Source: a virus
DNA length: 33,594 nucleotides
Virus record (IMG/VR): IMGVR_UViG_3300035670_000797
Location: 1 to 33,594 of that record
Direction: 5' to 3' (one strand)
In this document: positions 67 to 31,574 of the stretch, one piece after another
How positions within the stretch are numbered: the first letter of the stretch is position 1
Layout: each line of letters begins with the position of its first letter
Translations under genes and position numbers: made by a program
Notes under the pieces: model-generated
Told to the model about the DNA's origin: nothing
Databases searched by the model: none
The model's input: the letters and a program-made list of their open reading frames with translations, nothing else

Positions 67-900
67 TTAAAATGGCATTTCATCATCATCTTCAGCTTCA
101 TCATCGATGACTGGGGATTTATATTTAGCACTCGTAGTACCAGTTTCTTTCTTCACTGTTTCTTCACCTTTGGCAACAAACTTTTCAAGTTTTTTATCCC
201 AAACAGGGTTTTCGCCATTAGCGATGATTTCAAGATACTCAACAGGGGAAGCTTTATAAATTTCTTTCCAAGACATAGTATCTTTTACCCAAACTTTTGC
301 TTTTTCTTTGTCGTTTGTTAACATTGAAGGGTCTTCGGCCATAATAGAAGTAACTTTTGTGTTGTTTTTATCTCCACGACCTAACATGAGAATAAGATCA
401 CGACCTTCACGACCGTCAGAAAGATTCCCTTTTTTAGTGAAAAGTGGAATCATTTTATCTAATTCACCTTCACCTTTGTAATTGTGACGGAAACGCCAAA
501 TTTTAACACCGTCTTCTTCTTTTGAGCGGTCAATTACACGAGTCAAGTAAAATTTAGAAGCTTTGTAGGTTTTGGCAATTTTTTTATCTTCTTCACTACC
601 TGTAGCTTTTAAAGCTTTTTCAACCTCACACAATGGACATGTGTCACCATCGTTGTGTTCTCTACAATAAAGTTTTCTCCATTGTCCGTTAACTTGCATT
701 ACGTGAAAATAACCTTCTTCAAATGGTGATGCACCATCTTTAGTTGGCATTAAACGAATGGTTACTTCACCACTCTTTTCCCCATCTTCCAAACGTGGAT
801 TAAAGTACTTAGAGAAATCTTTTTCCTCAAAGGATTTTCCACCCCCAGAGTTTTTGTTTTTTTCATACTGCGACATAATCGCATCTAACACATTACTCAT
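67..900 (-). CDS. 32: Single-stranded DNA-binding protein, gp32-like
   Basis: A 277-aa homologue of T4 gp32, which coats single-stranded DNA cooperatively at the replication fork and during recombination and repair. T4 gp32 is about 300 aa. Visible features are a basic N-terminal arm (residues 1-30), a core with a zinc-knuckle pattern C79-x2-H82-x5-C88-x2-C91, aromatic-rich core segments (YFHVMQVNGQWRKLY, KIWRFRHNYKG), and a strongly acidic C-terminal tail ending DDDEMPF. That tail resembles the protein-interaction tips of SSB proteins. T4 gp32 uses one His and three Cys for zinc in different spacing. The gene has its own leader downstream of a terminator and is followed by another replication-type gene start. 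Confidence in the family is high. Confidence 0.92.
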   Translation of the reverse strand: MSNVLDAIMSQYEKNKNSGGGKSFEEKDFSKYFNPRLEDGEKSGEVTIRLMPTKDGASPFEEGYFHVMQVNGQWRKLYCREHNDGDTCPLCEVEKALKATGSEEDKKIAKTYKASKFYLTRVIDRSKEEDGVKIWRFRHNYKGEGELDKMIPLFTKKGNLSDGREGRDLILMLGRGDKNNTKVTSIMAEDPSMLTNDKEKAKVWVKDTMSWKEIYKASPVEYLEIIANGENPVWDKKLEKFVAKGEETVKKETGTTSAKYKSPVIDDEAEDDDEMPF

Positions 901-3088: not shown

Positions 3089-3547
3089 ATGAAAAAAGAA
3101 ACCGAATCAAACTTACTTACTTCTGAAACATTAAAAAGTTTTATTTTTGCTGGTACAGCTGTTTTTACTACTGTTAACGAAAAAACAGGTAATCGTTTTA
3201 CATTTCGTGTTCGTAAAGCTGGTTGGGGTACCTTGAATGTAAAGTCGGATATCTTTTATGTTTCTGTTTTAACAGGTTCGGATAATGAATCTTGTTATAC
3301 TTTTTTAGGTACTTTTTTTGGTGGTTCAAATCAATTATATCGTCACTCACCAAAAAGTAAAATTAGTTCTTCCGCTATTTCCAATAGGGTGATAGAATGG
3401 TTTTTTCAACATTATATTAAAAACCCCAATATTTACACAACGGTTAAAAATTACCATTCAGGTAAATGTGGTAAATGTGGTAGAAAACTGACCACCCCTG
3501 ATTCAATCAAAAGTGGTCTTGGTCCTCAGTGTGGAAATAGAGTTTAA
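3089..3547 (+). CDS. DUF6011-like zinc-ribbon protein
   Basis: A 152-aa protein whose C-terminus (residues about 125-152) carries CGKCGRKLTTPDSIKSGLGP followed by a final Cys. This is the signature of the DUF6011 family: a CxxCGRxLT knuckle, a Ser-Ile-Gly-Pro turn and one more Cys, probably a treble-clef or ribbon zinc site. The N-terminal 110 residues form an unknown beta-rich domain (FRVRKAGWGTLNVKSDIFYV). DUF6011 proteins are common in phages and plasmids and their function is unknown. The gene is alone on the plus strand with a host-like promoter, and its TAA overlaps the stop codon of the convergent hub gene in a shared TTAA. Confidence 0.8.
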   Translation: MKKETESNLLTSETLKSFIFAGTAVFTTVNEKTGNRFTFRVRKAGWGTLNVKSDIFYVSVLTGSDNESCYTFLGTFFGGSNQLYRHSPKSKISSSAISNRVIEWFFQHYIKNPNIYTTVKNYHSGKCGKCGRKLTTPDSIKSGLGPQCGNRV

Positions 3548-6500
3548 GTTATATTAAATAAATCAATAATTTTAGTCTCAGGTGTTATAGTTACACCATT
3601 ATAATTAAAAAATCCTGTAACAAAATTTAAATAATTATTATTTGATCTAGGACCAGTGGCGTAAGTAGCTAAATACTGATACAAATTTGGTTCATATAAA
3701 AATTTAACTCCTGGTACACATTTTTTTTGTTCTGAACTATAATCATTTGCTATAGTAATTTCTTTTCCAACAGAATTTCCGTAAAAAGCAGTTTTTCCTT
3801 TAGCATTTTTTACATCTTGAGGTGCTGAAGATAATTTATTTACAGAAGAATAGATGTATTTGGCTTGAGCCAAGGTACCATTTACTATATCACCTAGATT
3901 TGTGTTTTTACCACTATCAGTGTTACCAATATTACCTGGGTTTTTAGTGGTGTAAGCTCTGGCAGCTCGACTGTTGCCTTCTTTTGGGAAATAACCTTCT
4001 TGAATTGCCTGAGCAACCATCAATAACTTAATGCCTTTAGGTAATGATTTTATTGTACTGTTACTTTCAAATAATGGTGCGTATTCTTGCCAAAGATATT
4101 TTTGGTTTTTACGATCAATATCATTCCATTTTATACCACCTTTTATCCCAACACTTTTATCTTTTAAAACTGACGGTTTATATTGGTTAGGATCTGCAGG
4201 TCCTGAAGTTGGTGTACAACCCCCTCCTGTAACAGGTGAGTTATTCGAATTTCCCTGTCTAGCACCACCAGGTATGTAATGTTCGTAAATTGGATCTCCA
4301 ATTGGGACATTGGCCGGCTTACCGAATTCAGCGGTATTTAACAATGTATATGTAAATGATCTTACAGGTACACTATCACCTTCTTTTAATGTAGAACCGT
4401 TTGGTATAAAATTTTTGAGTTGGCCTAAAACCACTTTGGTTGTTGATGATCCTACTTGTGGGTTTTTAGCCTTTGTTAAAACGATATCTAAAAACTCCAT
4501 GTAGTCACCAGGTAATTTAAATACTTGACATCCGGCCGACCAATCATCAACTTCTTTTAAAGAACTAGTTTTAGTACCACTTGCGTGAATATTCATATTA
4601 GGTGTATCTAAAGTTAAAGATTTTATTCTTTTTTCGGCCCAAATGTCTTTATCATTATCCCTATAGATTAACATGGGTCTTTGGTTACTTAGAGCCGAAT
4701 ATTTACTTAAATGTATACCTGTTATATGAGAGCCTACATACTGACCTTCAGCTATAAATCCGGCACCTAACTTAGATTTAGCCTCAGTAGGGTCAGTATT
4801 GACAGTGTAAATTTGTCCACCCGTAACACCAGGGTCGGTAGTAATTTGCCAAACTTTAAATTGCCAATTATTTTTACAACTAGTGCAAGTAGGGTCTTTA
4901 TAGAAAACAGCTAAATAATCATCAAAAGAGTTTGGTGTCTGAACAAAATTTCTTATACCAACTATATTAACAACATATGGGTCGGTATATATTATATAAG
5001 GTTTATTAGGATCATAAACACCGTCTTTAATCAAAATATTTCTAGCATCTTTTAAAAATCTAGTACCACTTTCAGTATTAGGTCTTTTTTCAGAATAAAA
5101 AACTCCTTTATTTTTATTCATCACTGTTAATATCTCATCTAAGGTAGGTGGGGTTTTTACAGACTCTTCTTTAGTTATTATTTGTTCAAACTCTCCTGTT
5201 GAAAACACTTCTGTAGTAGTACCAACGCTAGTACCGTCACCGCCTTTAACCACTTCAGATAAAGGTCTTCCAGTAGTACTTGGTGTAACACCTTTAAAGG
5301 ATATATTCATCGCAACAGCCGCATCGGTAACAATAGGTACTGTTGCTCTTGGTTGTCTAACACCTTTGAATGTAGTTGTTGCGTGATTAGGTTTAATATT
5401 GTGTCTAACTTCCGTTATAATAAAAGCACCACTAAACATAGGTACACCTTGTAAATCAAAATAACTCATAGGTTGTATCATCATATTACCTAGAGATTCT
5501 ATAGTACATGTATAAGAACGAGTTAGATACATAGCATTTAGATTTTGACCCTTACTAGATTTATCATTACCACCTTGTTGTGTCAGTTTGTCAATAACTA
5601 ATAAAGACTCAGCTGTCTCACTAAATTCTGATTGATCTAATTGTATATTTTTAAAGTGGTTTTGATTTTCAGCCCCATATAAAACTCTAAAAGCAGTATA
5701 ACCTTCACTTTGATATGAAGGATCATTTGGGTTCGCTATTTCATCAGGTTTGTTAGGGTCTTGGAAGCTAAATCCGTCGTCTTCTATATTATCTAGAATT
5801 TCTTGATCTATGGGACAATTAACATTTGTTTTCATTTTTAATTGTCTAGATGACCCACCAACAAACATACATAAAAATAAAGGGCCACAACTAACGTCAT
5901 CTAAACTAAGGACAGGTCTAAACATATTTAAAACATCTTCATCTTTTACACCCTTAACCCCAAAATTAACATAGGTTGGTAGTGGAAAGAACATATACTC
6001 ATTTTCTGTTAATAAATCAGAAATATACTGATATAAACTAATTTTTTTATTATCCTTAAGTTCGTTTAATTTTGTAATATCTATCACTGCGATATCACCA
6101 ATATCACCCATAACTCTATTAACGTATTCAAAATGTGATGCTAATGTAGCCTTTGGTGTAGATCCTCTACCACCACAAGAACTTCCTGTTCCAGTTTCTC
6201 TAATATTAAAAAATAATTTCCCTGTACTTGATGCGGAAATCCATTTATCGGATAAAGATTTAAAGGTTCTATAAAGAGATAATTTAATATCATCATCATC
6301 TAATATTGTATCACCTAAACCAGAAATTTCTTCTTTACCTTGCTCTACTAAATCTTTTTTTCTATCTTCAATGGAAGCTCTGTAATTAGTATAAAAAGAA
6401 GTTAAATAAGTAGTTAATTGTTTTTCACTGACAACAAAACCTTCATTACCGTTTAAATTAAAATTGTTATTATTATTAGTATCCCCTATACCATACCAAA

Positions 6501-9500
6501 TTTTAGGTGTTGAATTTAAAATCCAATACTGGTCCGTCAAAAGTTTCATTAAGGTTTCGTTTTGATTGGGGGCTAGTAACCAATTATCTACAAGTAGTCC
6601 GTTAAATAAATTGTAAGCCGGGGTTTTATCACCGTTAAAATAAGAATATTTACTAGGTGATATGGTTCTAACTGAGGCTGAAGTATCAAAATTTATCGGA
6701 TCTATAATTTTTAACATATCATTCCATTCACTACTTATTGTCCAATCCTCAAATATTTTAACTATGTAGTTTTTAACATTGTCAGGTAAATACTGTATGA
6801 CCATACCTAAATTACCGTCTTCATATCTAGATCTAGTAGTATATTCACCATTTATATTGCCAGGTCCGTGTAAATACTGTGGGTTAGTAGTTGTTATTTC
6901 AGAAGTACCAACAGTACTTTCATCATAATTTTTACCGTCAATAGTGTTAGGCATCAAAGTAACATAATCTTGAAGTCCTATCCATTGGTCGGTTATTAAA
7001 ACAAAATTGGTACCGCCACCATCATCCCCATCATTAAAAACTTCTGGTGAAACATAAGGTATGTGGTGTGGTGCTATATAAATAAAAGGCCAAGAATAAT
7101 CTTTAGTTATATCTAACCTATTAGATCCACCACTATTTAGATTTGCCGTAGCTTTACCTAGTTCACCTAAACAGGTAGGACATTTTTCTTTTACAAAAGA
7201 AAAATATCTAAAACCTATAACATCATAATCACTGTCACCGCCAATATCATGTATAATTTGGCCGTATTCTCTATTTTGATAGTTTGACCCAAAAACAGAT
7301 TTGTTAATATTTTTATTATAATTGATGCGGTTTTGTCCACCATATACACCTTTTAAATAGGTATCCACATGGTTTCTGGTGTATACGGTTAAAACATCAT
7401 TATTAGTATCTTTACTGTCGTTAGTAGGCCATTTCCATCTTTTTCTTACGTTTACACTTTCAAAACTATTAAATCCTGGTTGTATTAAAGGATCATTACC
7501 TTCTGGTGTTTCACCATTACCACAATTATAACAATTTAAAGGTTTTTTCCATTTACTCCAACCACCAGTACCATCAGTATTTTTAGTATTAGGGTTATTA
7601 ACAAATTCACCCCATCGCCAAAGTTGGGATCCTAATGTTAATAACCATGCTTTAGGTACTTTTGATACCCCTGCAATAGAATTAAAAGCTTTTAATGACC
7701 ATATTAAGCTAGGATTACCGTCACTTTGGTTTTTAATACTGTAAAGACGGCCGTCATCGTCAATTATCCTTTTAATAAAAGGTGTTGATTTTAAAGAGTG
7801 TAAAAATAAATAGGCTAGGTTTTTATTTTGGGTTTCTGGGTTTAGAAGGTCAGCATTAGGTCTAGCCAACTTTCTAAAATTATTAACATTATCTAACCAT
7901 ATAGGTGTTGTTATTAACCCTGAATATAAATCATTAAGTTCTATTTCTGGAGCTTTTGTACCTTCAAATGCCGTTTCGGGAATAAATTTTTCTAAAAATT
8001 GGGTGTCATTAGGTACTTTCTCTGAGGTGATAGCATTAAAGCCAGTTATTTCTTTAACAAAATCGTTTTTAAATAAAGCAACACCATTAACTTCTTCATT
8101 AGCTACAACCCCTAATTCTTTATTCCAATAAGTTATTAAACCCATATTTGATACCACTTCTCCACCATAAGATTCTTTTGTTTGTTTAGTAAAATTACCA
8201 TCAGAATCTTCCCACCAACTAGACCAATTTATACTATTACTGGTTGTCAAAAAGGACATGATAAAAGTTGAGAACATTTGATTTTTTCTAAACTCAACAA
8301 TTTTTTGACCTTCAAAAACGGTTGTTAATTCTTTAGGGTATTTTTCATCATCTTGATTAAATGCTGAAGTTGCGAAATTAATATCGTTAATACTTTTCTT
8401 AAAAACTCTTGCCCAATTATCTAAAGATGCTTTTAATTTTTGGCCGGTGTTATTATTATCTGGAAAATTTATTTCTTGAAATCCTTGAACTGGTTGTCCA
8501 TTAGGTGCCTCAATAATCATAATTAAATTACTAGGGTCCATTTTGTGTGGATCAGAATAAATTTTAATATCACCATTATCCCTATCATTTTTTAAAATAA
8601 TAGAACCATCACCGTTTGGTTTGTATACATAAAAAGTGTCATCATCTTTAAAACCGTATGTATAGTTTATTTCAGTATTTGATTGGTCGTATGTTTTTGT
8701 TAATGTAACTTTTTTAAGTTGTGAACCTTTAAAAGTGGTTAAACTACCGTTTAATGTTAGTTGTTTTTCAACTTCTTGGATGAATGACTCTGGTGTCACC
8801 TCATTACAAATAGAAGATAATGTATTAAGGGTATCAACACTTGTTAATAAATTCCAAGAATCTATTTCTCCTGATCTTGCTGTAACGTTATCGTCACCAA
8901 TTTCCGCTTTTTGTAAAGGATTCCAATTGTCACCGACACCTATTTTAGGTATATAAAGAGCGTCATCAGTTAATCTAATTGGTTGGAAAAAGGTATGATC
9001 CAAAGTTATAAACATTCTTTCACCAATTATTTGGTATATTTCTTCTCTAGATGTTTTTTTGGTGTATTTAATTGGTGAATTTTTATACCACATTCTAGAT
9101 TCTAAAGGGTTTGTAGGTACATAGTTATCGTAACCTGGTTTACCTTCAGTTTTATCATCCAATATATCTAAAAAGTCTCTAGCTTCTAACATTGCTTTAA
9201 TAAAATCTTCAACAAATCTAACCTCCCACCAATTAGGAAAATCTCTTCCAGGAAAAACTTCTTTTTCGCCTTGTTTTGTTGAGTTTCCTTTAGTAGCAAC
9301 ATATGCCTTTTTAATATAAGTTGGCCAAGGATAAACTTTTTCTTCACCACTTATCACACTACTAGTAGAACCATTATTTTTTCTAAAGTTTTCAAGCTCT
9401 CCTTTATTGTCATCATGATATTTTTCAGCTTTCGCATAAACATCTAAAAGAACATCCATAAAGGCATCTGTGTTACATAAAATAACTGTAAAAATATTTC

Positions 9501-11025
9501 TAATAGAAGGTCTAAAACCTAATTTTTGTTCAATTAAGGCATTAATATTATCAATAAGTAACCTTCTTTTTTGTGTTAAAATACCATTATCACCAGTAAT
9601 TTTTTTTATCTCTTCTTCAATATCTTGTAAAACATATCCTAAATCAATAAAATTAGTTGTTACGTTATTAACAACATCGTTTGTAGTTGTAGGAGAACTA
9701 TAACCTAAATTACTTTTTATTTTAGAGGATAACCAATTACTATTTTTAAAAAAATTGGTGTCATATAAATTATAAGTCGTTGGCTGTGTTGGTTGATCAA
9801 ACTGATCGGGGCTTGAAACTCCACAAAAAATGTTATAAGGTGATTTATAAACAGAGTTGTTATTAACTTTAAAGGTTAAAACGTTTTTTATACTTTCCTT
9901 TAAATACCCTGTTGAAGTATTTAAGTAGCTGGATATAGTACCTCCGGATGTAGTTAATCTATTAACTTCATCATCAGAAAAAACAAATCTAGAAGGTCCT
10001 TGTTGTTTAGAAGTACTCGGTAAAAAAGAGGTGGGGTATTCTTCAGTTAACTTTTTTATTAATTCGTAAACCTGTCCTCTATAGGTTTTATAGTTAGTTT
10101 CTAACTGAATTAAATCAGTAACCTCTTTATAATCTGGTGATGCTACAATCTCTGGTTTACTTGTCTCATCAAATGTCTTTAAAAAAGTTAACAAATCCCC
10201 AATTGTAGTACATTTACCTTGACCAATTTGTGGATTATCACACCAAGGTTCCGCAATATCTCCAGGTAAAGGTACATTTCTACCAGTATTGTAATATTCT
10301 TTTGTGGCAATATATTTATTTCTTAATTTTTGTCTTGGTTGGTAGTCATTTTCTTTTAAAAACTGTGAAGATAAAACATACCAAACTATTACGTCAGCTA
10401 AAAACGCAAAAGTGTAACCGATAAATTCGGCTCTACACTCCATGTTACCAGTATCGGAATTAAATTTAGAATTAAACTTAACTAAATTTAAGTAATAATT
10501 TACGGGTTTACCGTAATAACCTTTAACAGTTAATTCAAAAATTGGGTAGGGCAAACTAAAAAATAAACCATATGGTGAACAAGAACCTTGTTCAAACAAT
10601 GTCGCACCACGTACATCTATAAAATCTATTACCACTTTTGGTGATGTTTGACTTTTAATCTCAATATCTATATTAGTTATACCAAAACCTTCATAGTCAA
10701 TATATAATTTTTCACTATTTGTTAAATGACCCCCAATTTCTGTCCAATCAGTTGTTAAATAATCTTTCGGTTGGAACAGTTTATTTCCTGCGACACTTTC
10801 TACAGTTTTTTGTGGTACACTTAAAATTATATCATTACCGTACTTGTTTTTATTAACACCTTCAGTAATTATAGATTTTGTTTTTTGTCTAGCCTTAAGT
10901 TTTACGTAAATAAATAAATCTTCTGGTGGTACAATTTCTCCTGAAGGGTTAGGATCTACAAACCTAACACCCTGTTCTCTACTTATCCATTCAGGTGTAT
11001 ATTCACTTTTACTGTACTCTGCCAT
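3544..11025 (-). CDS. Giant baseplate hub / tail lysin
   Basis: A 2493-aa virion protein, the largest gene here. The N-terminal part (1-220) has structural-protein blocks such as FSLPYPIFELTVKGYYGKPV. Residues about 1840-1895 carry a hub-like stretch (IQPMSYFDLQGVPMFSGAFI, then TTFKGVRQPRAT) typical of proteins at the tail-tube tip. At 2140-2175 there is an L,D-transpeptidase/YkuD-like signature, H2147 followed by S2163-A-G-C2166. The C-terminus (about 2330-2493) looks like a glucosaminidase or lysozyme domain, AQAIQEGYFP with candidate acid E2343, then NPGNIG. Three CxxC pairs lie near 1167, 1282 and 2046. In T4 the hub (gp27) and lysozyme (gp5) are separate; here one chain may do both, piercing envelope and murein. 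It follows the gp53-like gene by two bases. Confidence 0.8.
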   Translation of the reverse strand: MAEYSKSEYTPEWISREQGVRFVDPNPSGEIVPPEDLFIYVKLKARQKTKSIITEGVNKNKYGNDIILSVPQKTVESVAGNKLFQPKDYLTTDWTEIGGHLTNSEKLYIDYEGFGITNIDIEIKSQTSPKVVIDFIDVRGATLFEQGSCSPYGLFFSLPYPIFELTVKGYYGKPVNYYLNLVKFNSKFNSDTGNMECRAEFIGYTFAFLADVIVWYVLSSQFLKENDYQPRQKLRNKYIATKEYYNTGRNVPLPGDIAEPWCDNPQIGQGKCTTIGDLLTFLKTFDETSKPEIVASPDYKEVTDLIQLETNYKTYRGQVYELIKKLTEEYPTSFLPSTSKQQGPSRFVFSDDEVNRLTTSGGTISSYLNTSTGYLKESIKNVLTFKVNNNSVYKSPYNIFCGVSSPDQFDQPTQPTTYNLYDTNFFKNSNWLSSKIKSNLGYSSPTTTNDVVNNVTTNFIDLGYVLQDIEEEIKKITGDNGILTQKRRLLIDNINALIEQKLGFRPSIRNIFTVILCNTDAFMDVLLDVYAKAEKYHDDNKGELENFRKNNGSTSSVISGEEKVYPWPTYIKKAYVATKGNSTKQGEKEVFPGRDFPNWWEVRFVEDFIKAMLEARDFLDILDDKTEGKPGYDNYVPTNPLESRMWYKNSPIKYTKKTSREEIYQIIGERMFITLDHTFFQPIRLTDDALYIPKIGVGDNWNPLQKAEIGDDNVTARSGEIDSWNLLTSVDTLNTLSSICNEVTPESFIQEVEKQLTLNGSLTTFKGSQLKKVTLTKTYDQSNTEINYTYGFKDDDTFYVYKPNGDGSIILKNDRDNGDIKIYSDPHKMDPSNLIMIIEAPNGQPVQGFQEINFPDNNNTGQKLKASLDNWARVFKKSINDINFATSAFNQDDEKYPKELTTVFEGQKIVEFRKNQMFSTFIMSFLTTSNSINWSSWWEDSDGNFTKQTKESYGGEVVSNMGLITYWNKELGVVANEEVNGVALFKNDFVKEITGFNAITSEKVPNDTQFLEKFIPETAFEGTKAPEIELNDLYSGLITTPIWLDNVNNFRKLARPNADLLNPETQNKNLAYLFLHSLKSTPFIKRIIDDDGRLYSIKNQSDGNPSLIWSLKAFNSIAGVSKVPKAWLLTLGSQLWRWGEFVNNPNTKNTDGTGGWSKWKKPLNCYNCGNGETPEGNDPLIQPGFNSFESVNVRKRWKWPTNDSKDTNNDVLTVYTRNHVDTYLKGVYGGQNRINYNKNINKSVFGSNYQNREYGQIIHDIGGDSDYDVIGFRYFSFVKEKCPTCLGELGKATANLNSGGSNRLDITKDYSWPFIYIAPHHIPYVSPEVFNDGDDGGGTNFVLITDQWIGLQDYVTLMPNTIDGKNYDESTVGTSEITTTNPQYLHGPGNINGEYTTRSRYEDGNLGMVIQYLPDNVKNYIVKIFEDWTISSEWNDMLKIIDPINFDTSASVRTISPSKYSYFNGDKTPAYNLFNGLLVDNWLLAPNQNETLMKLLTDQYWILNSTPKIWYGIGDTNNNNNFNLNGNEGFVVSEKQLTTYLTSFYTNYRASIEDRKKDLVEQGKEEISGLGDTILDDDDIKLSLYRTFKSLSDKWISASSTGKLFFNIRETGTGSSCGGRGSTPKATLASHFEYVNRVMGDIGDIAVIDITKLNELKDNKKISLYQYISDLLTENEYMFFPLPTYVNFGVKGVKDEDVLNMFRPVLSLDDVSCGPLFLCMFVGGSSRQLKMKTNVNCPIDQEILDNIEDDGFSFQDPNKPDEIANPNDPSYQSEGYTAFRVLYGAENQNHFKNIQLDQSEFSETAESLLVIDKLTQQGGNDKSSKGQNLNAMYLTRSYTCTIESLGNMMIQPMSYFDLQGVPMFSGAFIITEVRHNIKPNHATTTFKGVRQPRATVPIVTDAAVAMNISFKGVTPSTTGRPLSEVVKGGDGTSVGTTTEVFSTGEFEQIITKEESVKTPPTLDEILTVMNKNKGVFYSEKRPNTESGTRFLKDARNILIKDGVYDPNKPYIIYTDPYVVNIVGIRNFVQTPNSFDDYLAVFYKDPTCTSCKNNWQFKVWQITTDPGVTGGQIYTVNTDPTEAKSKLGAGFIAEGQYVGSHITGIHLSKYSALSNQRPMLIYRDNDKDIWAEKRIKSLTLDTPNMNIHASGTKTSSLKEVDDWSAGCQVFKLPGDYMEFLDIVLTKAKNPQVGSSTTKVVLGQLKNFIPNGSTLKEGDSVPVRSFTYTLLNTAEFGKPANVPIGDPIYEHYIPGGARQGNSNNSPVTGGGCTPTSGPADPNQYKPSVLKDKSVGIKGGIKWNDIDRKNQKYLWQEYAPLFESNSTIKSLPKGIKLLMVAQAIQEGYFPKEGNSRAARAYTTKNPGNIGNTDSGKNTNLGDIVNGTLAQAKYIYSSVNKLSSAPQDVKNAKGKTAFYGNSVGKEITIANDYSSEQKKCVPGVKFLYEPNLYQYLATYATGPRSNNNYLNFVTGFFNYNGVTITPETKIIDLFNIT

Positions 11026-11027
11026 AT

Positions 11028-11351
11028 TTAAATTTTATATAAAACATTATAGTTATTTATTTGTTGTTGGTAGTCTTGTAAAGCGTTTAATAAAGGGAAT
11101 GGTACCCTAATTATAGTACCATCAGGTATATCAAACTCTAAACCACCGTATTGTGGATTTGCTTGCATAATTAGCCAACCGTAGTAAGGTGTACCATAAT
11201 AGGTGTTTGAAACAATGTCAAGTCTTGTTTTATTACTTTTGTATTGAATTGTTATGTCTGTCGACCTATCGGTTATTTTTATAAAAGGAAGAACTTTAAT
11301 TTCATTATTAATTCTAAAATTTTGATATCTGTCGTAATATTGTTTTGCCAT
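11028..11351 (-). CDS. 53: Baseplate wedge protein, gp53/LysM-like
   Basis: A 107-aa protein with the pattern DRLD/TRLDIVSNTYYGTPYYGWLI, ANPQYGG and IPDGTIIRVPFP. This is characteristic of the gp53 / tail protein X group, small LysM-like domains that help fasten the baseplate and may touch peptidoglycan or the hub. T4 gp53 is longer (196 aa), so this is a minimal version. It sits between the two giant baseplate genes with gaps of two and six bases, which suits an assembly partner of both. Family call is good; the exact T4 equivalence is inferred. Confidence 0.8.
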   Translation of the reverse strand: MAKQYYDRYQNFRINNEIKVLPFIKITDRSTDITIQYKSNKTRLDIVSNTYYGTPYYGWLIMQANPQYGGLEFDIPDGTIIRVPFPLLNALQDYQQQINNYNVLYKI

Positions 11352-11357
11352 AAAATT

Positions 11358-14300
11358 TTATGTTTTTGGTAATGTTATTTGAGTTCTTAATATTACCTCT
11401 TGTTGTTGATTTGTTACAGGACTTAACCCTGGGTTATAAGTAATTTCTATATCAAAAACACCTTCTCCTGACCAATATTTGTCGTTAGTTGAGCTAAGTA
11501 CATTGTTATTAGGATCTAAAGGTGTTGCGTAATAAGGTATAGAAATAGATGTGGTAATTTGTCCTTTTGTAAAAGTACCTGTACTAGATACAACATCACA
11601 CTTAGGACATTCTTGTAAATTACCAGATAATTTTTGGGTAACTTTTGTCCCCGTACTTGGGGTGATTTTAATCCCTAAAGGGCCTATAGGTTCTTTAAGG
11701 TGACCTGGATTAAAATCCGCACAACATTCTTTTCTTTTATCAAAAATCTGTAACACATAATATCTTCCGTTTGGTTTTTTAACGTTTACTAAAATTTGAC
11801 TTGCACTTTCTAAGGTAAAGTTAGGGTCACTTCCAGCAACACCGTAAAATGTATTACTTACTGGGTTAGGGTTGTTAGAATATTCTACCCCATCTTTATT
11901 AAGTAATCTAATTATTACATCATCCCCCCCATTTGGTGGTTGTGGTGGCGTAGGTGGTCTGTTATCACCCTCAGTTGATTTAACCTCACTTGTTGGTGTA
12001 TTAACCGGTGTGTTAGTTGTTATATCTATTTCAGGAAGTATAATTGGGTTTGTTTCAGTACCCAACGCTGTAGTGTTAGCCGTGTTTTTATTATCTTCTT
12101 TAGATTTTTCTTCAGCCTTAAGAAGGTTTACATCATTTTCAGAGAAAATTGTATCGATATCACTTGGTTTTAAGAAAGCCCCATAAACTAATTTTAATCT
12201 TTTACCTGTTTCATCAGAAAGTTGTTTCGCTTTTTGATAAGTTCCGGTATTTGCAAAGAAATTATAAGAAACAGCGTTCTGTAATTGTTTTATAGGACCA
12301 CCCAATGAACTTCCACCAATAAATTTAAAACCTAAACTAACTTTAGCTATCATGGGTTGTACCCCTATCCCTTCAGGGTTTAAATCCCATTGTAGTGGTT
12401 CGTAAGTGATATTAACACTGTCTATAATAATTTTTGTATAATAAAAATCACCAATTCTTAATACACAAACAGGTGGGCGACCGAAGACCATATTTGACGG
12501 TATTTCCGAATCCATCATTTGTGGTCCTTGTCTAGTACATTGTAATAAAAAAGTTAATCTTGAATTAAATCCTTCAGGTGTGATAGCGTGAAATGCGGGG
12601 TGGAAATATTTAATTTTTTCAGATAGTGATTGATAAACAAATGGTTGGTCTCGTTTCATTTGTTCAAAATATTCACATTCAGTAATAAATCTATCAGCAC
12701 TTCTATTAGCTAATTCTTGTCTTTCTTTATTAATTTGTTTTATTCTTTCTTTTTGAATTTTTTTCTCTTTATCTATTTGTTTTTTTAATAAACTTACTTG
12801 TAATTCAGTATCTTTTATTAAAATAATTTCACTAAATCTACTTTGTTTATCAGCTTTTGAGTTGGCACTACCGCTTTTTAATTCAGTATCACAAGGGTTT
12901 CCATCACAACAAGAGGGTTTACCACTATTGTCAAGACATTTATCTGATGGTTGGCATTCTCTTTTTAACTTTTTTCCATTAGGTTCAGCAATAGGTTCAA
13001 ACCATCTTAATGGTGATCCTTTTAATTCTTCTTCTGTAGGGTAAGTTCCATAATCTTTATTACCGTGTAAGTAGACTTCTGGTTTATCATTTTTTTCATA
13101 ATTTAACATTAATTTTAATAAGTAATCTCTAGTATTTATAGCTCTATCTGAAGCTAAAGTTTTGTTATAATTGTCACTCGGAAGTGCCGGTGAGGTATAA
13201 CCCAAAACTTTAATTTTGAAATTTTTACCGTCTTCTTTACCTTTAAACTCACCAGTACAAGTTAAAAATCTAGCCAATTTTTCTAAATTTTCTTTAGTAC
13301 CTTTATTTAAATAAGGGTAACTATTTGTACCCGCAGGTCCACAAGGATATTCAGTACTATTAATTAACCATTGGTTTTCATTTACATTAACTAAAGAAGG
13401 TACTGTAACTTCATATTTATCCAAATCAACTTTTCTACCTATTAATTGTCTTCTTTCTTTTATGGAAGTGTTATCTGGTACTCTTCTTGCGTTTTCAAAA
13501 TAAATTTTGATGTTATTAAAAGGTGGGTTTTCAGGGTCAGTAGATGTAATATTGATTTCTGGTTCAGTATATTCTTCTATTATCACATCTTCACCATCTT
13601 CTAATAAATCACCAAATATCTGTTTAAGAGTTTCGTTATCACATCCAGCAAAAAATGAATTATAGGCCTCATCCATTATAGAGTTTTTAAACCTATCTTT
13701 TAGTTGATTCAGAGCCGCAGGGTGGTCAACTACTATACTAAAATCTAAAGTACCACTTCTTTCGGTGTGATTATAGGTATACAAATTTTCTCCACGACCA
13801 ATAAAACTCGTTGTATCCCAACTTACCGAACTACTATCGGTAAAATTAATATCGTAAGGTGGAAACCACATTATCCTACCACCGTTAGGTCCTTTTTCAC
13901 ATTCTGGTAGTGAATTGTGTTGTGGAGCATCTTTCCAAGCCAAATTTTCTATCGATAACATATAAGGTATTACCGCAGATTTTATTTTAGATCCGTTTAC
14001 AATGTTTTTAACTCTTTCAAAATCATTTTTATCCCAAGCTATTTTAGGAGTACCTAAAGGTCTACCTGTTGTTTTATCGTACCCCCAATTCATAGTCATA
14101 TCAGTGTTAGTTGACTGTTTCCTCCACCAATTACCGTCACTTCTGACCAAATTATCCCAAGTATGATATTTTCTACGGGAAGACCAAGAACGACAATAAT
14201 ATTCACCACCAGAGTTGTCTGTAAAATTATAGTTTCTGGCCACATTACCTTTAGACGGATTTGTTGGTTTAGATTTTGGTGACTTAACTCCTGTTTGATG

Positions 14301-16184
14301 AGCTCCGTTTACTAAAGCCCCTGTATTACCATCTGAATCAAAATACCCTATATATCCGGCTGCAGAACCTAAATTAGATTTATTAACTAATTCTTGTGTG
14401 TATTTTAATAAACCTTTTTTAAATTGATTATTATTTTTAGATCTCCAATCAAATCTTTCATCAGTAACACCAATGGTAATATCTCTACCTTGTTCTACTG
14501 GTGTACCATTATAAGTTGTTAGTATAACATCTTTATCACTATAATTTAACTCCCCACCACCTTCATTAAAACCAGCGCCATCAGCTAAATCAAAACCGAC
14601 AGATTCTAAAGGTTCATAACGACCATAAAATGAACCGTATTTATCACTACCCCATTCAGCTGCAGATGTATCATCAAAAACACTACTCCTTAAACTTTCA
14701 GCATTTTCTTTTGACTTATTTAAGACATTTTTTACTTTTTGATTAATATCGTTAATTAATGAGTCTTTTCTTTGTCCTGTGTTTTCTGTAGTTGTAGATG
14801 TTTGTGTTAAATAATTTTGTGTGTTAGGTGCTTGTCCGGCTCCTAATTTTTCTTTAGTTATTTGACCCAAACTAGTTGTCGGTGGGTTGGCGTTTAATGT
14901 TGGCCCGTATTTGTTTATATAAAGTGCGTTATATAACAAAGATTTTTGCCCAGAACCCGTATAATCTAAAATTCCTGTAATATCTGGCGATGTATTATCA
15001 ATGTTATATAAACCAAACAAATTACCAACTTCATCTGTAGGTATAATACTTGTAGGTAAATTAAATCCGGCAAGGTCTGCAGCAAATTGTGCAGCTTTAC
15101 CGAGTCCTGTTTTAGGTACTGTAATACTATAGTTTTGTTCTATTAAATTACCTCCAGCTAAAAGATTAAATGGACTTGTGTTTAAAGCACCTACGGTATT
15201 ATCAGTAAAATTTAATTTTATTCTATTAAGTAATTCTACCCCTCTTTGTTTTCTAGCTATTTTATCTAATTCAGAAATATTTTGTCCATCAGGTTTAAAA
15301 TTAATACCTGAACCTATTGTACTAAACGGTATTACACCAACACCTAAACTTCTTGTTAATAATTGGTCTCTAAAATCACCTTGTACAGCCGTACTATATT
15401 GAATTAATCCTGTATTAGGGTTTACAACTTCATCAACCTTATAAGAATAAGATATCATCTCATTTGGTCCCCATTTATTGTTTGCAGGAGAAAATAATTG
15501 TGTATCTCTAAGTTCCGAAACTGTAGATACCGCACCACCAGGACTGACCCAAGATTCAACATTACCTGCAAAACCAATTTTTAAAGTTTGTGGAACACCG
15601 TAAGAAGTATTTTTAGAACTACCTGCTTGGTTAATTGCCGGTATTAAACTGGGATACCAAGTCGCTAACTCAACAAAAGTTGGGTTTTTATCAAAACTAT
15701 CTTGTCTTGGTGAAGTAAAATTATTATAAACTGAAGGTGTATCTGAAATATCTTCTGGTGAAGGTAAATCTATATTAGCTGTATTTGTGTTGAAAAGTGT
15801 TGTTGCATCTTGTCCTAAACCAGCTTGTATTGGCGTGCTTAATCCTAAAGTATTTTGTACCTCGGGATTAAGGTTTTGAAGGTTGTTGGTTAGATTAACT
15901 TGTCTCGGATTTGTTAAGTTATTGTAAAGTGATGGTGTTTGTGCAACATCTTGTAGATTAGGTACATCCACAATATTAGGACTGCTTTGAGACACGTCAT
16001 ACTCTGTTCCTCTATCTTGCCAAGGATTACCTCCTAAAATACCGTTAATAACACTATTAGCTACTGGTAAATTATGTGTAAATAAATAAGTACGAAAATT
16101 AGTGTCTGATATCGGACCTAATATACCACTATCAAAATTATCAATATTATAATTAAATGGATTTATTGCTGGGTTTGAAGGCAT
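11358..16184 (-). CDS. Large baseplate/tube-initiator protein with OmpA-like domain
   Basis: A 1608-aa structural protein. The N-terminus has two copies of a 24-residue peptide of form [VI]D[VL]P..[QE]D[VI]...TPS[LV]YNN.T.PRQ (72-95 and 138-161). Residues about 770-830 (MWFPPYDINF, then IGRGENLYTYNHTERSGTLD) resemble tube-like proteins of contractile injection systems. Residues about 960-1040 hold an OmpA-C-like peptidoglycan-binding signature (LGYTSPALPSDNYNK, LASDRAINTRDYLL). A Lys/Glu coiled coil lies near 1130-1170, preceded by a Cys-rich insert near 1085. Residues about 1195-1300 carry FHAITPEGFNSRLTFLLQ and RPPVCVLRIGDFYYTK, typical of hub-proximal baseplate proteins. The final 250 residues are beta-rich and Pro/Thr-rich. 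A tail-tip or tube-initiation role is the best inference. Confidence 0.75.
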   Translation of the reverse strand: MPSNPAINPFNYNIDNFDSGILGPISDTNFRTYLFTHNLPVANSVINGILGGNPWQDRGTEYDVSQSSPNIVDVPNLQDVAQTPSLYNNLTNPRQVNLTNNLQNLNPEVQNTLGLSTPIQAGLGQDATTLFNTNTANIDLPSPEDISDTPSVYNNFTSPRQDSFDKNPTFVELATWYPSLIPAINQAGSSKNTSYGVPQTLKIGFAGNVESWVSPGGAVSTVSELRDTQLFSPANNKWGPNEMISYSYKVDEVVNPNTGLIQYSTAVQGDFRDQLLTRSLGVGVIPFSTIGSGINFKPDGQNISELDKIARKQRGVELLNRIKLNFTDNTVGALNTSPFNLLAGGNLIEQNYSITVPKTGLGKAAQFAADLAGFNLPTSIIPTDEVGNLFGLYNIDNTSPDITGILDYTGSGQKSLLYNALYINKYGPTLNANPPTTSLGQITKEKLGAGQAPNTQNYLTQTSTTTENTGQRKDSLINDINQKVKNVLNKSKENAESLRSSVFDDTSAAEWGSDKYGSFYGRYEPLESVGFDLADGAGFNEGGGELNYSDKDVILTTYNGTPVEQGRDITIGVTDERFDWRSKNNNQFKKGLLKYTQELVNKSNLGSAAGYIGYFDSDGNTGALVNGAHQTGVKSPKSKPTNPSKGNVARNYNFTDNSGGEYYCRSWSSRRKYHTWDNLVRSDGNWWRKQSTNTDMTMNWGYDKTTGRPLGTPKIAWDKNDFERVKNIVNGSKIKSAVIPYMLSIENLAWKDAPQHNSLPECEKGPNGGRIMWFPPYDINFTDSSSVSWDTTSFIGRGENLYTYNHTERSGTLDFSIVVDHPAALNQLKDRFKNSIMDEAYNSFFAGCDNETLKQIFGDLLEDGEDVIIEEYTEPEINITSTDPENPPFNNIKIYFENARRVPDNTSIKERRQLIGRKVDLDKYEVTVPSLVNVNENQWLINSTEYPCGPAGTNSYPYLNKGTKENLEKLARFLTCTGEFKGKEDGKNFKIKVLGYTSPALPSDNYNKTLASDRAINTRDYLLKLMLNYEKNDKPEVYLHGNKDYGTYPTEEELKGSPLRWFEPIAEPNGKKLKRECQPSDKCLDNSGKPSCCDGNPCDTELKSGSANSKADKQSRFSEIILIKDTELQVSLLKKQIDKEKKIQKERIKQINKERQELANRSADRFITECEYFEQMKRDQPFVYQSLSEKIKYFHPAFHAITPEGFNSRLTFLLQCTRQGPQMMDSEIPSNMVFGRPPVCVLRIGDFYYTKIIIDSVNITYEPLQWDLNPEGIGVQPMIAKVSLGFKFIGGSSLGGPIKQLQNAVSYNFFANTGTYQKAKQLSDETGKRLKLVYGAFLKPSDIDTIFSENDVNLLKAEEKSKEDNKNTANTTALGTETNPIILPEIDITTNTPVNTPTSEVKSTEGDNRPPTPPQPPNGGDDVIIRLLNKDGVEYSNNPNPVSNTFYGVAGSDPNFTLESASQILVNVKKPNGRYYVLQIFDKRKECCADFNPGHLKEPIGPLGIKITPSTGTKVTQKLSGNLQECPKCDVVSSTGTFTKGQITTSISIPYYATPLDPNNNVLSSTNDKYWSGEGVFDIEITYNPGLSPVTNQQQEVILRTQITLPKT

Positions 16185-23813: not shown

Positions 23814-23823
23814 TTATAAATAT
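23814..23823 (-). promoter_or_regulatory. Late-promoter-like element inside a stop codon
   Basis: Minus strand GAATATTTATAATAAAATG: the element ATATTTATAA is also the Glu-Tyr-Leu-stop end of the endonuclease gene, and lies four bases before the next ATG. A promoter here would give a nearly leaderless transcript. Confidence 0.45.
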
Positions 23824-24765: not shown

Positions 24766-25254
24766 TCAGAAAACATGAATTGCACGGTCAAATCTTAACG
24801 TGCCGGTAATCTCAGCGATATCAGAAGAACTGTAATCTAATGAACCAAAGTCAACATTTGTTAACATTGTACCTTGAAGAATCCATTTTTCGATTACAAC
24901 ACCTGTTGGGTCAAGTAATTCTAATTCAATATCTTTCTTATAACCTGCCGCGTAACCTTGACGACCAGTTACAGATTCAGAATGAAGACGTACCCATTCC
25001 ATTAAAGCTTGTGCCGCTGAAGGACCAATTGGGTCGCGGAAAGTAACATCAATAGTATCCCAAGTAAAACGACCAATTACCCAAGTCGAAGTATTTAAGA
25101 ACTGAATTTCAGTTTCTTCTTGAGAAATTTTTGGTCTTGATGAAGATTTCACAAACCATTCTTGAATTCCTAATGGTGAAGGAAATCTAAGGATAAATCT
25201 GTTTTGTTTTTTCGGTTCGTAAGGAACCGGCATCCTCATTAATAAATCTGCCAT
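24766..25254 (-). CDS. 19: Tail tube protein, gp19-like
   Basis: A 162-aa protein, one residue short of T4 gp19 (163 aa). It forms the hexameric rings of the inner tail tube through which DNA passes. Diagnostic stretches are NRFILRFPSPLGIQEWFVKS near the N-terminus, STWVIGRFTWDTIDVTFRDP in the middle and a C-terminal beta-hairpin IAEITGTLRFDRAIHVF. It has its own upstream late-like element, and the hairpin that follows it is a strong terminator, fitting high-level monocistronic expression. In T4 it directly follows the sheath gene; here 289-aa and 68-aa genes and the plus-strand ClpP cassette lie between them. Confidence 0.92.
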   Translation of the reverse strand: MADLLMRMPVPYEPKKQNRFILRFPSPLGIQEWFVKSSSRPKISQEETEIQFLNTSTWVIGRFTWDTIDVTFRDPIGPSAAQALMEWVRLHSESVTGRQGYAAGYKKDIELELLDPTGVVIEKWILQGTMLTNVDFGSLDYSSSDIAEITGTLRFDRAIHVF

Positions 25255-28769: not shown

Positions 28770-31574
28770 TTAGATATTATCGAATGATGCACCAGTAGGT
28801 GTTACATTAAACTCGATTATGATAAATTCAAGTGAAGGTATTGGTTTTAAGAAAATCTTACCTCTCATCTCATTTCTATCAATTTCTTCAGGGTCATTAG
28901 ATAATTGAACTCTAAAGTCAGCTAAACCTCTTTCTTTTCTAATGTTATCCAAAATAGGGTTAACTAAGTTTAAGAATTGATTTCTAACAATTTGATCGTT
29001 TTGTTCAAATAATAATCTTACACCAACCGCTGTAATTAATTTACGAGCTTGTAATAACAACCTTCTAATGTTAAGTCTATCAAGAACAGAATCTTTAACT
29101 TGTAAGTTTTTATTACCCCAAATTACAACACCTACGTCAGAGAAAGTTGCCATTGGGTTTACACGTCCTTCGTAAAGTGTGTCTCTATCTTCTTCAGTAA
29201 GTTTAAATCTGGCTTGAAGTGCGTTTGTTAAACCTCTATTGTAACCAGCTACAGCGTACCAAGGAAATGCTACATTATCAGTTAAAGCGATGTTACGACA
29301 AACTTCTAATGTTGGTGGTAACCAAACATTAACATTGTTTTCATCGTCTCTTTCTTGAATCCACGGCCAGTATGTGGCTGTATAGTTAGAATCTATATCG
29401 GCTGCATCTAATAAATCTATTAAAGATGAGGCGTCATTTATTGTTACTGAATTAAAACCAAAACCTATTGTATCATCAGTAGTATCGTACTCAACATTTT
29501 CAGGGGAAGTTACAATATAAACTGAATCAGCTCTTTGTTCCTCAATCATATCTATAGTTTCTTGTACTAAATAATTGTTACCTAAAGATAATGATGGGGA
29601 CCAATCTATACCAGGTGTTGCAAACACATTAATATTTACAGCCTCAGGGTTTGCGAAAGTTTTAATATTGTTCCAATAAGCGTATAAATCAGAAGTTCCG
29701 TCTTGTGGACCAAGTTGTTGGAATTGGCCGTTAGCTAAACCTGTGTTAAATCCTGACTTACCGATACGATATCTATCTGTGTTAGTTCTTGAAGTTCTAT
29801 GACAATCCCATCCGTCAAAACCCCAATAAGGAACAAACGTGAATTTTCTTGCCGTAGTACTTTCATATATTGTACCCTCAATCCCAAGAGAGTCTCTAAA
29901 TTCGGCCTCACCAACTTCAAAATTACCTGCAATGGTTGCTCCACTATCCATATGGAATCCTTTAGTTGTTGCCGACCAATATTTATTATCGTCTGTTTTA
30001 CCTTTCCATTGGAACATGTCAGAATCAATACCTACTGTATCACTAATACCTAAATAAACTCTTCTAATCCTTTCATTCTCAGGATCGTAAGTTGTTTTGT
30101 AGTCAATAAAAGGTGGTAAATAACTTAACTGAGATGAAGACGAAAATGTTCTACCAACATAATCTCTAACACGATAGCCCTCAAAACCAGCTGGGAAAGC
30201 GTCTGACGGTGCGTTATCATTCATAACTACCATGATAAATCTACTGTTTAAAGTAAATTCACCATCCGCTGTACCAATTCTTCTTGCTATAAAATTATTA
30301 GAATTAGGTTCCATAGTACATTTAGCGTACGTTTCAAGAATTGAAGGTCTTGCGTCAGTGTCATTAAACTGTCTAACTACGACATCAAATTCTTTTCCGT
30401 CTGGATCTATATTTTGAATAGAAATTTTAATTTCAGTATTTGCTGCAGTACCATCAGAGATTGATACGAATTTAAATAATTTAAATACTTGATTACCACG
30501 TAATTCAGATACAACCCAAGGAGTTTCAGGAGTTTGATATTGTTGTTTATAATTATCTATATTACTTATATAGATTAACTCATCTTTTAAACCTAAAATA
30601 TAATTGTTATCAATTAAATCTTGTAACATATTAGGGTAGATTTCTTCTACATAAATTTTTGATGTTTTGTCTGTACAATCTTCACCTAAGACACCAGTTA
30701 TATAATTTCTACTTGTTCTATCTAATGAAACATCATAAACAGAACTAGCACTTAATCCTATAGAATATGCTGATAAAGAAAACTGTGCTAAAGGGTTTGT
30801 ACTGTTTAAAGACAAACCACCTACTAAACCTTGATATGACTGATCTGTAGACCATAAAAAGTTATCACTAATATAAGTTCCTCTTGATCTTAATAAAGCC
30901 AAAGTTAAACCATCGTATTCTGTATAAGCTGTTGCTGTATAGGTTGTTACGGTACCAGAAATTGAACCCGAATCACCGGTTATAGTTAATAAACTTATTG
31001 TCGTAGAGGCACCAGTAAAGTTAGGATAAGTATTACTATCAAAAGTTATACCTTCTGGATATACAGGTGTCACACCAGGTACATCTGTAGTGGTTAATGT
31101 AGCACCATTAGGGTATAAACCTAAGTTATAAAGATATTCTGCATTAGGATCAGTAAAATTATAATAAAAAGTACCACCAGTAAAATCCGCTGTAAATGTT
31201 GTGGTTGCACCAGTAACAATAGTGGAAGGATTGTAATTAGCTTTCGATACGATAGCCCATCCATCACCAGCATCATAACCAGTTAAACCCAATACCCTAG
31301 ATACAAATAATTGGTTTGATTGTGTTAGGTAATATTTAGCAATATATGGAAGTTCGTATTTTGGTTTATTATTACCAAATTTTTCAGGACTTAACCCACC
31401 AAAAATTGTTAAAAATTCATCGTAATTTGTAATAAAAATCGGTTCAAAAGCCGGACCTTTTAAGGTTTCACCAGCTAAACCTAAAGTTGTCACACCAACT
31501 TGTTGTGACACAAAGGTTAAATCTTTTTCTGAAGTAAAGACACCTGGTGATACAAATATTTTTTGTGAAGCCAT
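28770..31574 (-). CDS. 18: Tail sheath protein, gp18-like
   Basis: A 934-aa sheath subunit; T4 gp18 is 659 aa. The N-terminus (ASQKIFVSPGVFTSEKDLT, ITNYDEFLTIFGG, PYIAKYYLTQSNQLFVSRVL) and C-terminus (DVGVVIWGNKNL, NIRRLLLQARKLI, then EMRGKIFLKPIPSLEFIIIE) are classic for contractile sheaths; the ends interlink neighbours in the helical lattice. The middle (about 95-560) carries large Thr/Ser/Gly/Tyr-rich insertions, probably surface domains outside the conserved core. It has a late-like element 31 bases upstream and a strong terminator downstream, so it is expressed alone at high level. Confidence 0.95.
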   Translation of the reverse strand: MASQKIFVSPGVFTSEKDLTFVSQQVGVTTLGLAGETLKGPAFEPIFITNYDEFLTIFGGLSPEKFGNNKPKYELPYIAKYYLTQSNQLFVSRVLGLTGYDAGDGWAIVSKANYNPSTIVTGATTTFTADFTGGTFYYNFTDPNAEYLYNLGLYPNGATLTTTDVPGVTPVYPEGITFDSNTYPNFTGASTTISLLTITGDSGSISGTVTTYTATAYTEYDGLTLALLRSRGTYISDNFLWSTDQSYQGLVGGLSLNSTNPLAQFSLSAYSIGLSASSVYDVSLDRTSRNYITGVLGEDCTDKTSKIYVEEIYPNMLQDLIDNNYILGLKDELIYISNIDNYKQQYQTPETPWVVSELRGNQVFKLFKFVSISDGTAANTEIKISIQNIDPDGKEFDVVVRQFNDTDARPSILETYAKCTMEPNSNNFIARRIGTADGEFTLNSRFIMVVMNDNAPSDAFPAGFEGYRVRDYVGRTFSSSSQLSYLPPFIDYKTTYDPENERIRRVYLGISDTVGIDSDMFQWKGKTDDNKYWSATTKGFHMDSGATIAGNFEVGEAEFRDSLGIEGTIYESTTARKFTFVPYWGFDGWDCHRTSRTNTDRYRIGKSGFNTGLANGQFQQLGPQDGTSDLYAYWNNIKTFANPEAVNINVFATPGIDWSPSLSLGNNYLVQETIDMIEEQRADSVYIVTSPENVEYDTTDDTIGFGFNSVTINDASSLIDLLDAADIDSNYTATYWPWIQERDDENNVNVWLPPTLEVCRNIALTDNVAFPWYAVAGYNRGLTNALQARFKLTEEDRDTLYEGRVNPMATFSDVGVVIWGNKNLQVKDSVLDRLNIRRLLLQARKLITAVGVRLLFEQNDQIVRNQFLNLVNPILDNIRKERGLADFRVQLSNDPEEIDRNEMRGKIFLKPIPSLEFIIIEFNVTPTGASFDNI

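Follow-up and report, generated by a model that had tools for sequence, protein, structure and literature searches.

An OmpA-C-like insert with a changed pocket in the probable tail-tube initiator of a T4-like phage group

Wall-binding folds in tails and other large machines

In T4-type tails the tube initiator travels with the tube and, after contraction, stands at the tip that enters the periplasm. A wall-binding fold, LysM, forms part of the tube initiator or of an adjoining connector in Mu (gp43), Milano (gp25), A-1(L) (gp16) and T4 (gp53), and the excerpts consulted describe it as the connector of hub, wedge and tube initiator (PMC11915804, PMC10966104). A second fold of this kind is the C-terminal domain of OmpA, Pal and MotB (PF00691; A. 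baumannii OmpA 3td3-5, Pal 1oap). The canonical peptidoglycan-binding motif reads TD(x)7NxxLSxxRA (PMC5104382), and the wall-peptide contacts given for TagL are Asp486, Asn494, Leu497 and Arg501 (PMC8253398). Domain D3 of Tp0624 from Treponema pallidum carries a fixed Ala for the Asp that binds diaminopimelate (DAP) and keeps LSxxRA; the excerpt reports no detectable DAP binding, by soaking or by calorimetry (PMC5104382).

The phage protein described here resembles the Mu, Milano, A-1(L) and T4 systems in having a wall-binding fold in or beside the contractile-tail tube initiator. It differs in that the fold is OmpA-C instead of LysM, is predicted to lie inside the tube-like fold, and is accompanied by a gp53-like gene. 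With the OmpA/Pal/MotB domains it shares the fold, the profile and the Asn, Leu and Arg residues, but its DAP-binding Asp is replaced and its carrier is a tail protein, not an envelope protein. TagL (type VI secretion system) and MotB (flagellar motor) likewise place OmpA-C on large machines, the first of which is related to contractile tails (PMC8253398), and there it serves to anchor the machine to the wall. They are located in the envelope of the producing cell, and TagL keeps its Asp, whereas the phage domain is part of the projectile and lacks it. Tp0624 D3 shows a comparable change, a small residue being fixed where the DAP Asp would stand, yet it is cellular and has Ala where the phage has Ser, and Glu or Gln where the phage has Asn. 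Baseplate chains of the PVC, AFP and Algoriphagus contractile injection systems (6j0n_b, 6rao_G, 7aeb_M) rank high among the structural counterparts of the tube-like core; with 223-225 residues they are too short for an OmpA-C insert, and the phage protein is about seven times longer. Among the matches listed in our search of the open-access literature, none concerned an OmpA domain in phage baseplates or tails.

The locus and its 1608-residue protein

The source window, by which we mean the whole stretch of DNA analysed, is a virus record of 33,594 bases; its features are collected in Table 1. The gene for the 1608-aa protein lies between a tape-measure candidate and the gp53-like and hub genes, separate from the main tube gene, and a baseplate hub protein (phrog_150) is also encoded around it. 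Flavobacterium phage immuto has the same gene order, with a 716-aa protein (gene 235, QQO92153.1) in the corresponding slot. The first half of the tube core of this protein was recognised by profile (E 2e-4) and the rest by eye; unlike the window protein, it has a tube core free of an insert, and the OmpA-insert profile does not match it. With the main tube gene located elsewhere and the slot fitting, sequence and predicted structure together make the 1608-aa protein the likely tail-tube initiator of a contractile, T4-like phage.

Table 1. Features of the 1608-aa protein and of neighbouring tail genes in the window
Feature	Coordinates	Strand	Basis
1608-aa protein, probable tail-tube initiator with OmpA-C insert	11358..16184	-	ORF reading; structure models; gene slot
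Full 66-aa tandem unit (aa 72-137), starting with repeat copy 1 (aa 72-95, 15900-15971)	15774..15971	-	
Repeat copy 2 (aa 138-161), start of last, diverged unit	15702..15773	-	
Tube-like fold, first half (aa 735-819; holds WFPPY...VVD)	13728..13982	-	Structural alignment to 6j0n_b on both sides of the insert
OmpA-C-fold domain (aa ~879-1126)	12807..13550	-	3td5_A Z 10.3, 118 aligned, model 227..472; 3td4_B; profile E 1.6e-9
Pocket motif GYTS...NxxLASDRA (aa 995-1015)	13140..13202	-	Ser998 at the DAP-binding Asp position; alignment counts; published contacts
Tube-like fold, second half (aa 1203-1294)	12303..12578	-	Structure model and structural alignment
gp53-like baseplate wedge protein, 107 aa, next gene	11028..11351	-	phrog_7145 E 2.4e-6
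2493-aa protein, hub/spike slot (assigned from gene order)	3544..11025	-	phrog_3000 E 3.6e-16, aa 2025-2182
Tape-measure candidate (weak), 918 aa	16300..19056	-	phrog_167 E 0.36; position as immuto gene 233
Tail tube protein (gp19-like)	24766..25254	-	phrog_4542 E 2.4e-31; Pfam Phage_T4_gp19 E 1.6e-4, under cut-off
Tail sheath protein	28770..31574	-	phrog_23 E 1.3e-50; Pfam sheath C-terminal domain

Relatives of the gp53-like gene were found at 178 of 251 loci; Pfam searched with the window's 107-aa protein at E up to 1 gave nothing. The sole good match of the 2493-aa protein is phrog_3000, labelled by PHROGs as of unknown function, and its last 504 residues gave one chance row only (Pfam, E up to 1); by eye, a stretch NIHASGTKTSS...SAGC in this protein looks like a catalytic His...Cys motif. 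Several other genes stand amid the tail genes. They encode a ClpP-type protease on the opposite strand (25382-26068, +; Pfam CLP_protease E 4.9e-59; phrog_94, head maturation protease), followed, also opposite to the tail genes, by a Band 7/SPFH protein (26354-27544, +; E 2e-6), an M42/M20-type peptidase (21888-22859, +; Pfam Peptidase_M42 E 3.3e-5) and a DUF559-domain protein, possibly an endonuclease (23814-24698; E 2.4e-6). Two IMG/VR contigs of 130,210 and 60,113 bases (L082 and L083) encode a sheath protein 100% identical to that of the window, so longer contigs of the same or a very close phage exist.

Database searches with the 1608-aa protein alone returned little. Its one Pfam match is to OmpA, with none to LysM, although a LysM of the Mu type may be too diverged for Pfam; residues 1-689 and 1345-1608 gave nothing at E up to 1. 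As a single sequence against the PDB it drew one chance row, and PHROGs holds no family for it, with only the OmpA region matching a ‘membrane protein’ family (three of 55 members). No relative of the whole protein was found in the viral contigs, nor by tblastn (E 1e-3) in 50,697 phage records. The segment of residues 690-1350 gave only two rows at E 10 in the phage records, and the segment of a relative gave none there.

The N-terminal part holds two copies of a 24-residue peptide, exactly at the positions first proposed (72-95 and 138-161). They are identical at 13 of 24 residues, with a BLOSUM62 score of 86, whereas shuffling the first 330 residues 200 times gave 46 at most. These copies are the heads of longer tandem units of 64-68 residues, 66 in the window protein. 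The motif exceeds the threshold in 17 of the 73 proteins scanned (first 450 residues), and its number does vary between relatives, as the initial annotation had suggested should be checked: one copy in L002, L008-L011, L027 and L029, two in the window protein, L003, L005, L006, L014 and L015, three in L016 and also in L004, where two are weak, and four in L012 and L013, where neighbouring units are 73-85% identical in DNA. Copy numbers of one, two, three or four in close relatives fit an arm of variable length better than a fixed symmetry. Since close relatives gain and lose units, the repeat resembles a spacer arm, though it may also act in docking to symmetric partners, as the initial annotation proposed.

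An OmpA-C fold inside a tube-like fold

Searched on its own, the window protein matches Pfam OmpA below threshold, at E 0.0034 and with 18.1 bits where 27.2 would be needed. A profile built from 59 relatives recovers solved domains of the OmpA/Pal/MotB type from the PDB with a best E of 1.6e-9, nearly all of the best rows being named OmpA-, Pal- or MotS-type molecules, and Pfam OmpA is matched at E<=0.01 by 36 of these relatives when each is searched singly. The similarity thus rises beyond chance only once the relatives are included. AlphaFold, given the domain alone, returned a model with mean pLDDT 82.8 and pTM 0.83, in which the beta-alpha-beta-alpha fold with its closing antiparallel strand is found. 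VIA-align placed first the diaminopimelate-bound A. baumannii OmpA 3td4_B (Z 9.8, rmsd 2.5, 111 residues), tied with the next rows. The 50 rows listed by Foldseek are periplasmic domains of the OmpA/Pal/MotB type or complexes containing one, with a best E of only 4.4e-3; for some of the complexes the presence of such a domain is our assumption. Profile and predicted structure agree, and the OmpA-C fold proposed for a segment of this protein is supported by both: the profile search and the structure prediction that the initial annotation had called for each recovered it, the latter with Z about 10. Of its landmarks, GYTS stands at 995-998 as given; the stretch LASDRAINTRDYLL, which it had set two residues away, begins at residue 1010 and spans 1010-1023.

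The surroundings of the domain were examined in a second AlphaFold model, of residues 655-1330 (mean pLDDT 67.6, with values mostly of 82-97 in the strands and helices of the OmpA core and lower ones in loops). Model residues 81-636, with the insert skipped, match baseplate chains of PVC, AFP, P1, Mu, T4 and A-1(L) with Z from 10.7 to 8.6. The best row is PVC 6j0n_b (Z 10.7, 144 residues, rmsd 3.8), and others are 6rao_G (Z 10.6), 9ay5_G (Z 9.9), Mu 9ki1 (Z 9.1), A-1(L) 8kea (Z 8.6), T4 5iv5 (Z 8.6) and 7aeb_M (Z 8.2); Foldseek gave this part a best E of only 0.12. We take the matched chains to be tube initiators, which the structure table itself says only of A-1(L), titled ‘baseplate-initiators’. 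A tail-tube-like fold is thus seen in the predicted model, a fold common to tube proteins and tube initiators. Residues 225-472 of the same model match OmpA and Pal with Z up to 10.5. As the two tube halves flank the insert and the OmpA/Pal match lies within it, the OmpA-C domain is, on this model, inserted inside the tube-like fold, after a long strand pair and ahead of the next helix. The segment had originally been put between tube-like and hub-proximal regions, a placement that the model corrects. An arrangement with the OmpA part as a separate domain beside the tube region is rejected on the structural alignment of the model.

Relatives were sought with the conserved segment of residues 1190-1330, which has 337 matching stretches in the viral contigs, of which the best 80 were used; further loci came from scans with the sheath and with relatives. 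Seven loci derive from bacterial genome assemblies, including rumen Bacteroidales bins and a Prochlorococcus single-cell genome contig. The loci are the best rows per scan and not a random sample. From 182 ORFs matching the profile, 25 were dropped for an absent anchor (10 without WFPPY, 12 without PAFH, three without VDH), and the 157 kept gave 119 distinct sequences and 107 at 90% identity. Two of these are OmpA-less by reading, leaving 105 counted relatives in which the presence of the domain rests on the alignment and not on a row-by-row profile match. Mel-JY01 and immuto aligned poorly in the family-wide alignment and were excluded from all counts. In ca. 32-42 kb around the sheath or tube genes of four cultured or named relatives, searched with both profiles, Mel-JY01, RM378 and LR756508 gave nothing above chance; only gene 235 of immuto matched, with the tube profile alone. 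By sequence and model, then, the OmpA-C insert in a probable tube initiator is common to a large phage group, and so is its changed pocket.

The changed pocket and its possible roles

At the position of the DAP-binding Asp, the 105 relatives have Ser (90), Gly (10), Thr (3), His (1) or Asn (1), and Asp in none. The rest of the pocket is largely kept, with Asn in 88, Leu in 95 and Arg in 100, and all three are present in the window protein. Three relatives (L017, L021, L026) have an Asp one residue further on, the spacing to Asn putting Ser in the Asp position. Among the 25 rows dropped earlier, 18 are readable at this column and read Ser (14), Thr (1), Gly (1), Ala (1, probably outside the domain) and Asn (1), again with no Asp. 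Arg is replaced by Phe or Leu in nine of the 25, some of them near-copies, and the count of 100 in 105 therefore leans upwards. For comparison, 45 distinct cellular Bacteroidota OmpA domains gave Asp in 37, Ser in seven and Ala in one by script, in a control set taken from Pfam OmpA matches of two of three genomes and from the loci that profile A1 ranked highest in 61 genomes, and so leaning towards phage-like domains. The Ala row (L175) is a misparse; it reads GYTD, so that Asp is present there too. The seven cellular domains with Ser for the DAP Asp (L181, L183, L200, L202, L206, L212, L213) read GYAS, GHAS or GFAS. A tree built for an origin from such Ser-type cellular domains has 85 columns and weak forks. 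Two of the seven cellular sequences with Ser fall among those of phages in this tree, and one phage sequence falls with the cellular set; the tree included the OmpA-less phage row L277, on a very long branch.

These counts bear directly on the first proposal for the domain, that it anchors the baseplate to murein. The Asp/Arg pair, chosen beforehand as the mark of murein binding in homologues, is split, Arg being generally present and Asp missing from all 105 relatives and all 18 readable dropped rows, compared with its presence in 37 of the 45 cellular domains. Canonical wall binding is disfavoured by this loss. The kept fold, Asn, Leu and Arg would suit a domain that, in the manner of OmpA or Pal, binds free diaminopimelate and ties the baseplate to the wall. 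From general knowledge, however, a probable tube initiator should not touch the Gram-negative wall before puncture: since it moves with the tube, contact would come only after puncture, and at the tube tip instead of the baseplate. We consider such an anchor very improbable.

The pocket has nevertheless not decayed across most relatives, to judge from the near-fixation of Ser at the Asp position and the retention of Asn, Leu and Arg. Of the 144 well-filled columns in the 105 rows, the most conserved are Arg1014 (95%), Leu1010 (90%), Ser998 (86%) and Asn1007 (84%), with Asn898 close behind (83%). Part of the Leu and Arg conservation may serve the fold itself, since Tp0624 keeps these residues with no DAP binding detected. 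The domain as a whole changes much faster than the tube core, mean pair identity being 25% for the domain core (within bounds that we chose) and 55% for the tube core.

Some relatives lack the domain. At twelve loci (L309-L320, ten distinct inserts) a low-complexity linker of 112-134 residues takes its place, and the domain profile gives no match on the sequence examined. In the tube-core tree (midpoint root, short search) their two representatives form one branch beside OmpA-bearing rows, which suggests loss of the domain if the root is placed anywhere but on this branch itself. Whether lost or not, the domain is absent from a branch whose twelve loci all retain the gp53-like gene; the domain is thus accessory, and a baseplate of this type can do without it. 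In another group of the tree, which as a whole has an SH-aLRT of only 74, the motif is eroded in 10 of 16 rows; these lie around and beside the Prochlorococcus-associated L167, and Phe or Tyr takes the place of Arg in five counted rows. Dropped rows near L167 (L242, L245-L248, L251, L258) have Phe or Leu for Arg, some still with Ser. Among L238-L258 (e.g. L243, L244, L249, L253), near L167, the OmpA-like insert is kept while the pocket motif is eroding.

The reading that we tentatively prefer, without holding it to be probable outright, is that the tube initiator bears an accessory OmpA-C module for docking, with a re-specified pocket; it draws on sequence, model and analogy. The Arg/Asn pocket of the module, carried on the tube-initiator ring, would hold a carboxylate-bearing peptide of a baseplate partner. 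The module would thereby bracket the initiator to the surrounding baseplate, as LysM appears to do in Mu, A-1(L) and T4, and the N-terminal 66-residue units would form an arm of variable length. Consistent with this are the tube-like fold flanking the insert, the OmpA fold within it, the pocket columns as the most conserved ones and the disappearance of Asp, with the LysM connectors and Tp0624 as precedents. Against it, the gp53-like wedge gene, a usual connector, already adjoins and is kept at all the OmpA-less loci; the domain evolves far more quickly than the tube core, which is not how a tightly packed structural part behaves; the best-conserved patch is the pocket, which also fits a small envelope ligand; and that pocket is eroded in one group, where Phe, Tyr or Leu replaces Arg.

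Fast change, absence from one branch and a conserved pocket fit a small ligand of the host envelope about as well as a bracket within the baseplate. After contraction, the OmpA-C modules at the tube tip would in that case bind a periplasmic envelope ligand through the Ser-type pocket and hold the tube end at the wall. We regard this as possible but somewhat doubtful; the ligand might be, for example, a peptidoglycan stem peptide with its diaminopimelate amine already cross-linked, or another carboxylate ligand. A grip of this kind would account for a pocket that is the most conserved part of a fast-changing domain, with Arg kept in nearly all relatives despite the loss of its acid partner. Ser-type pockets also occur in cellular Bacteroidota OmpA, and a host-facing trait would be expected to be absent from some branch and eroded in some group, as is the case here. 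On the other side stand the complete absence of the DAP Asp and the comparable change in Tp0624, which in the excerpt went with no detectable DAP binding (PMC5104382). Among the matches listed in the literature searched, we found neither a ligand nor a binding datum for a Ser-type OmpA pocket; the available text of the FopA paper states a wall interaction and gives no pocket test with it. The LysM precedents and the lost Asp lead us slightly to favour a bracket between initiator and baseplate over a grip on the envelope.

The low identity of the domain, its absence from one branch and the group with the eroded motif, together with the loss of Arg to Phe or Tyr in five of the counted rows and to Phe or Leu in nine of the dropped ones, could also point to a loosely constrained decoration, or to a mimic of host OmpA/Pal-type proteins that binds a periplasmic protein of the host, the old pocket being left without a role. 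Pure decoration, however, would not keep the pocket columns as the most conserved over 105 rows, and we think either version improbable.

The most far-reaching form of these ideas, which we put forward as unlikely though less so than a decoration or a mimic, is that a mostly uncultivated T4-like lineage took a Ser-pocket OmpA domain, of a kind also found in some Bacteroidota OmpA proteins, into the ring that starts the tube, where the altered pocket fastens the tip of the tube to the envelope that it has penetrated, perhaps by way of cross-linked and not free wall peptides. If true, this would be an injection machine anchored to the wall by its projectile and not by its base. Whatever its role, OmpA-C would be the second wall-binding fold, after LysM, to be recruited into the tube initiator of contractile tails, and with a clear change of its pocket. 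Should the pocket still bind, it would show by what means a tube tip stays at the wall and which ligands the Ser-type OmpA domains recognise; should it not, the group would illustrate neatly the conversion of a binding fold to a structural bracket. The natural relatives that lack the domain, or whose pocket is eroded, are ready comparisons.
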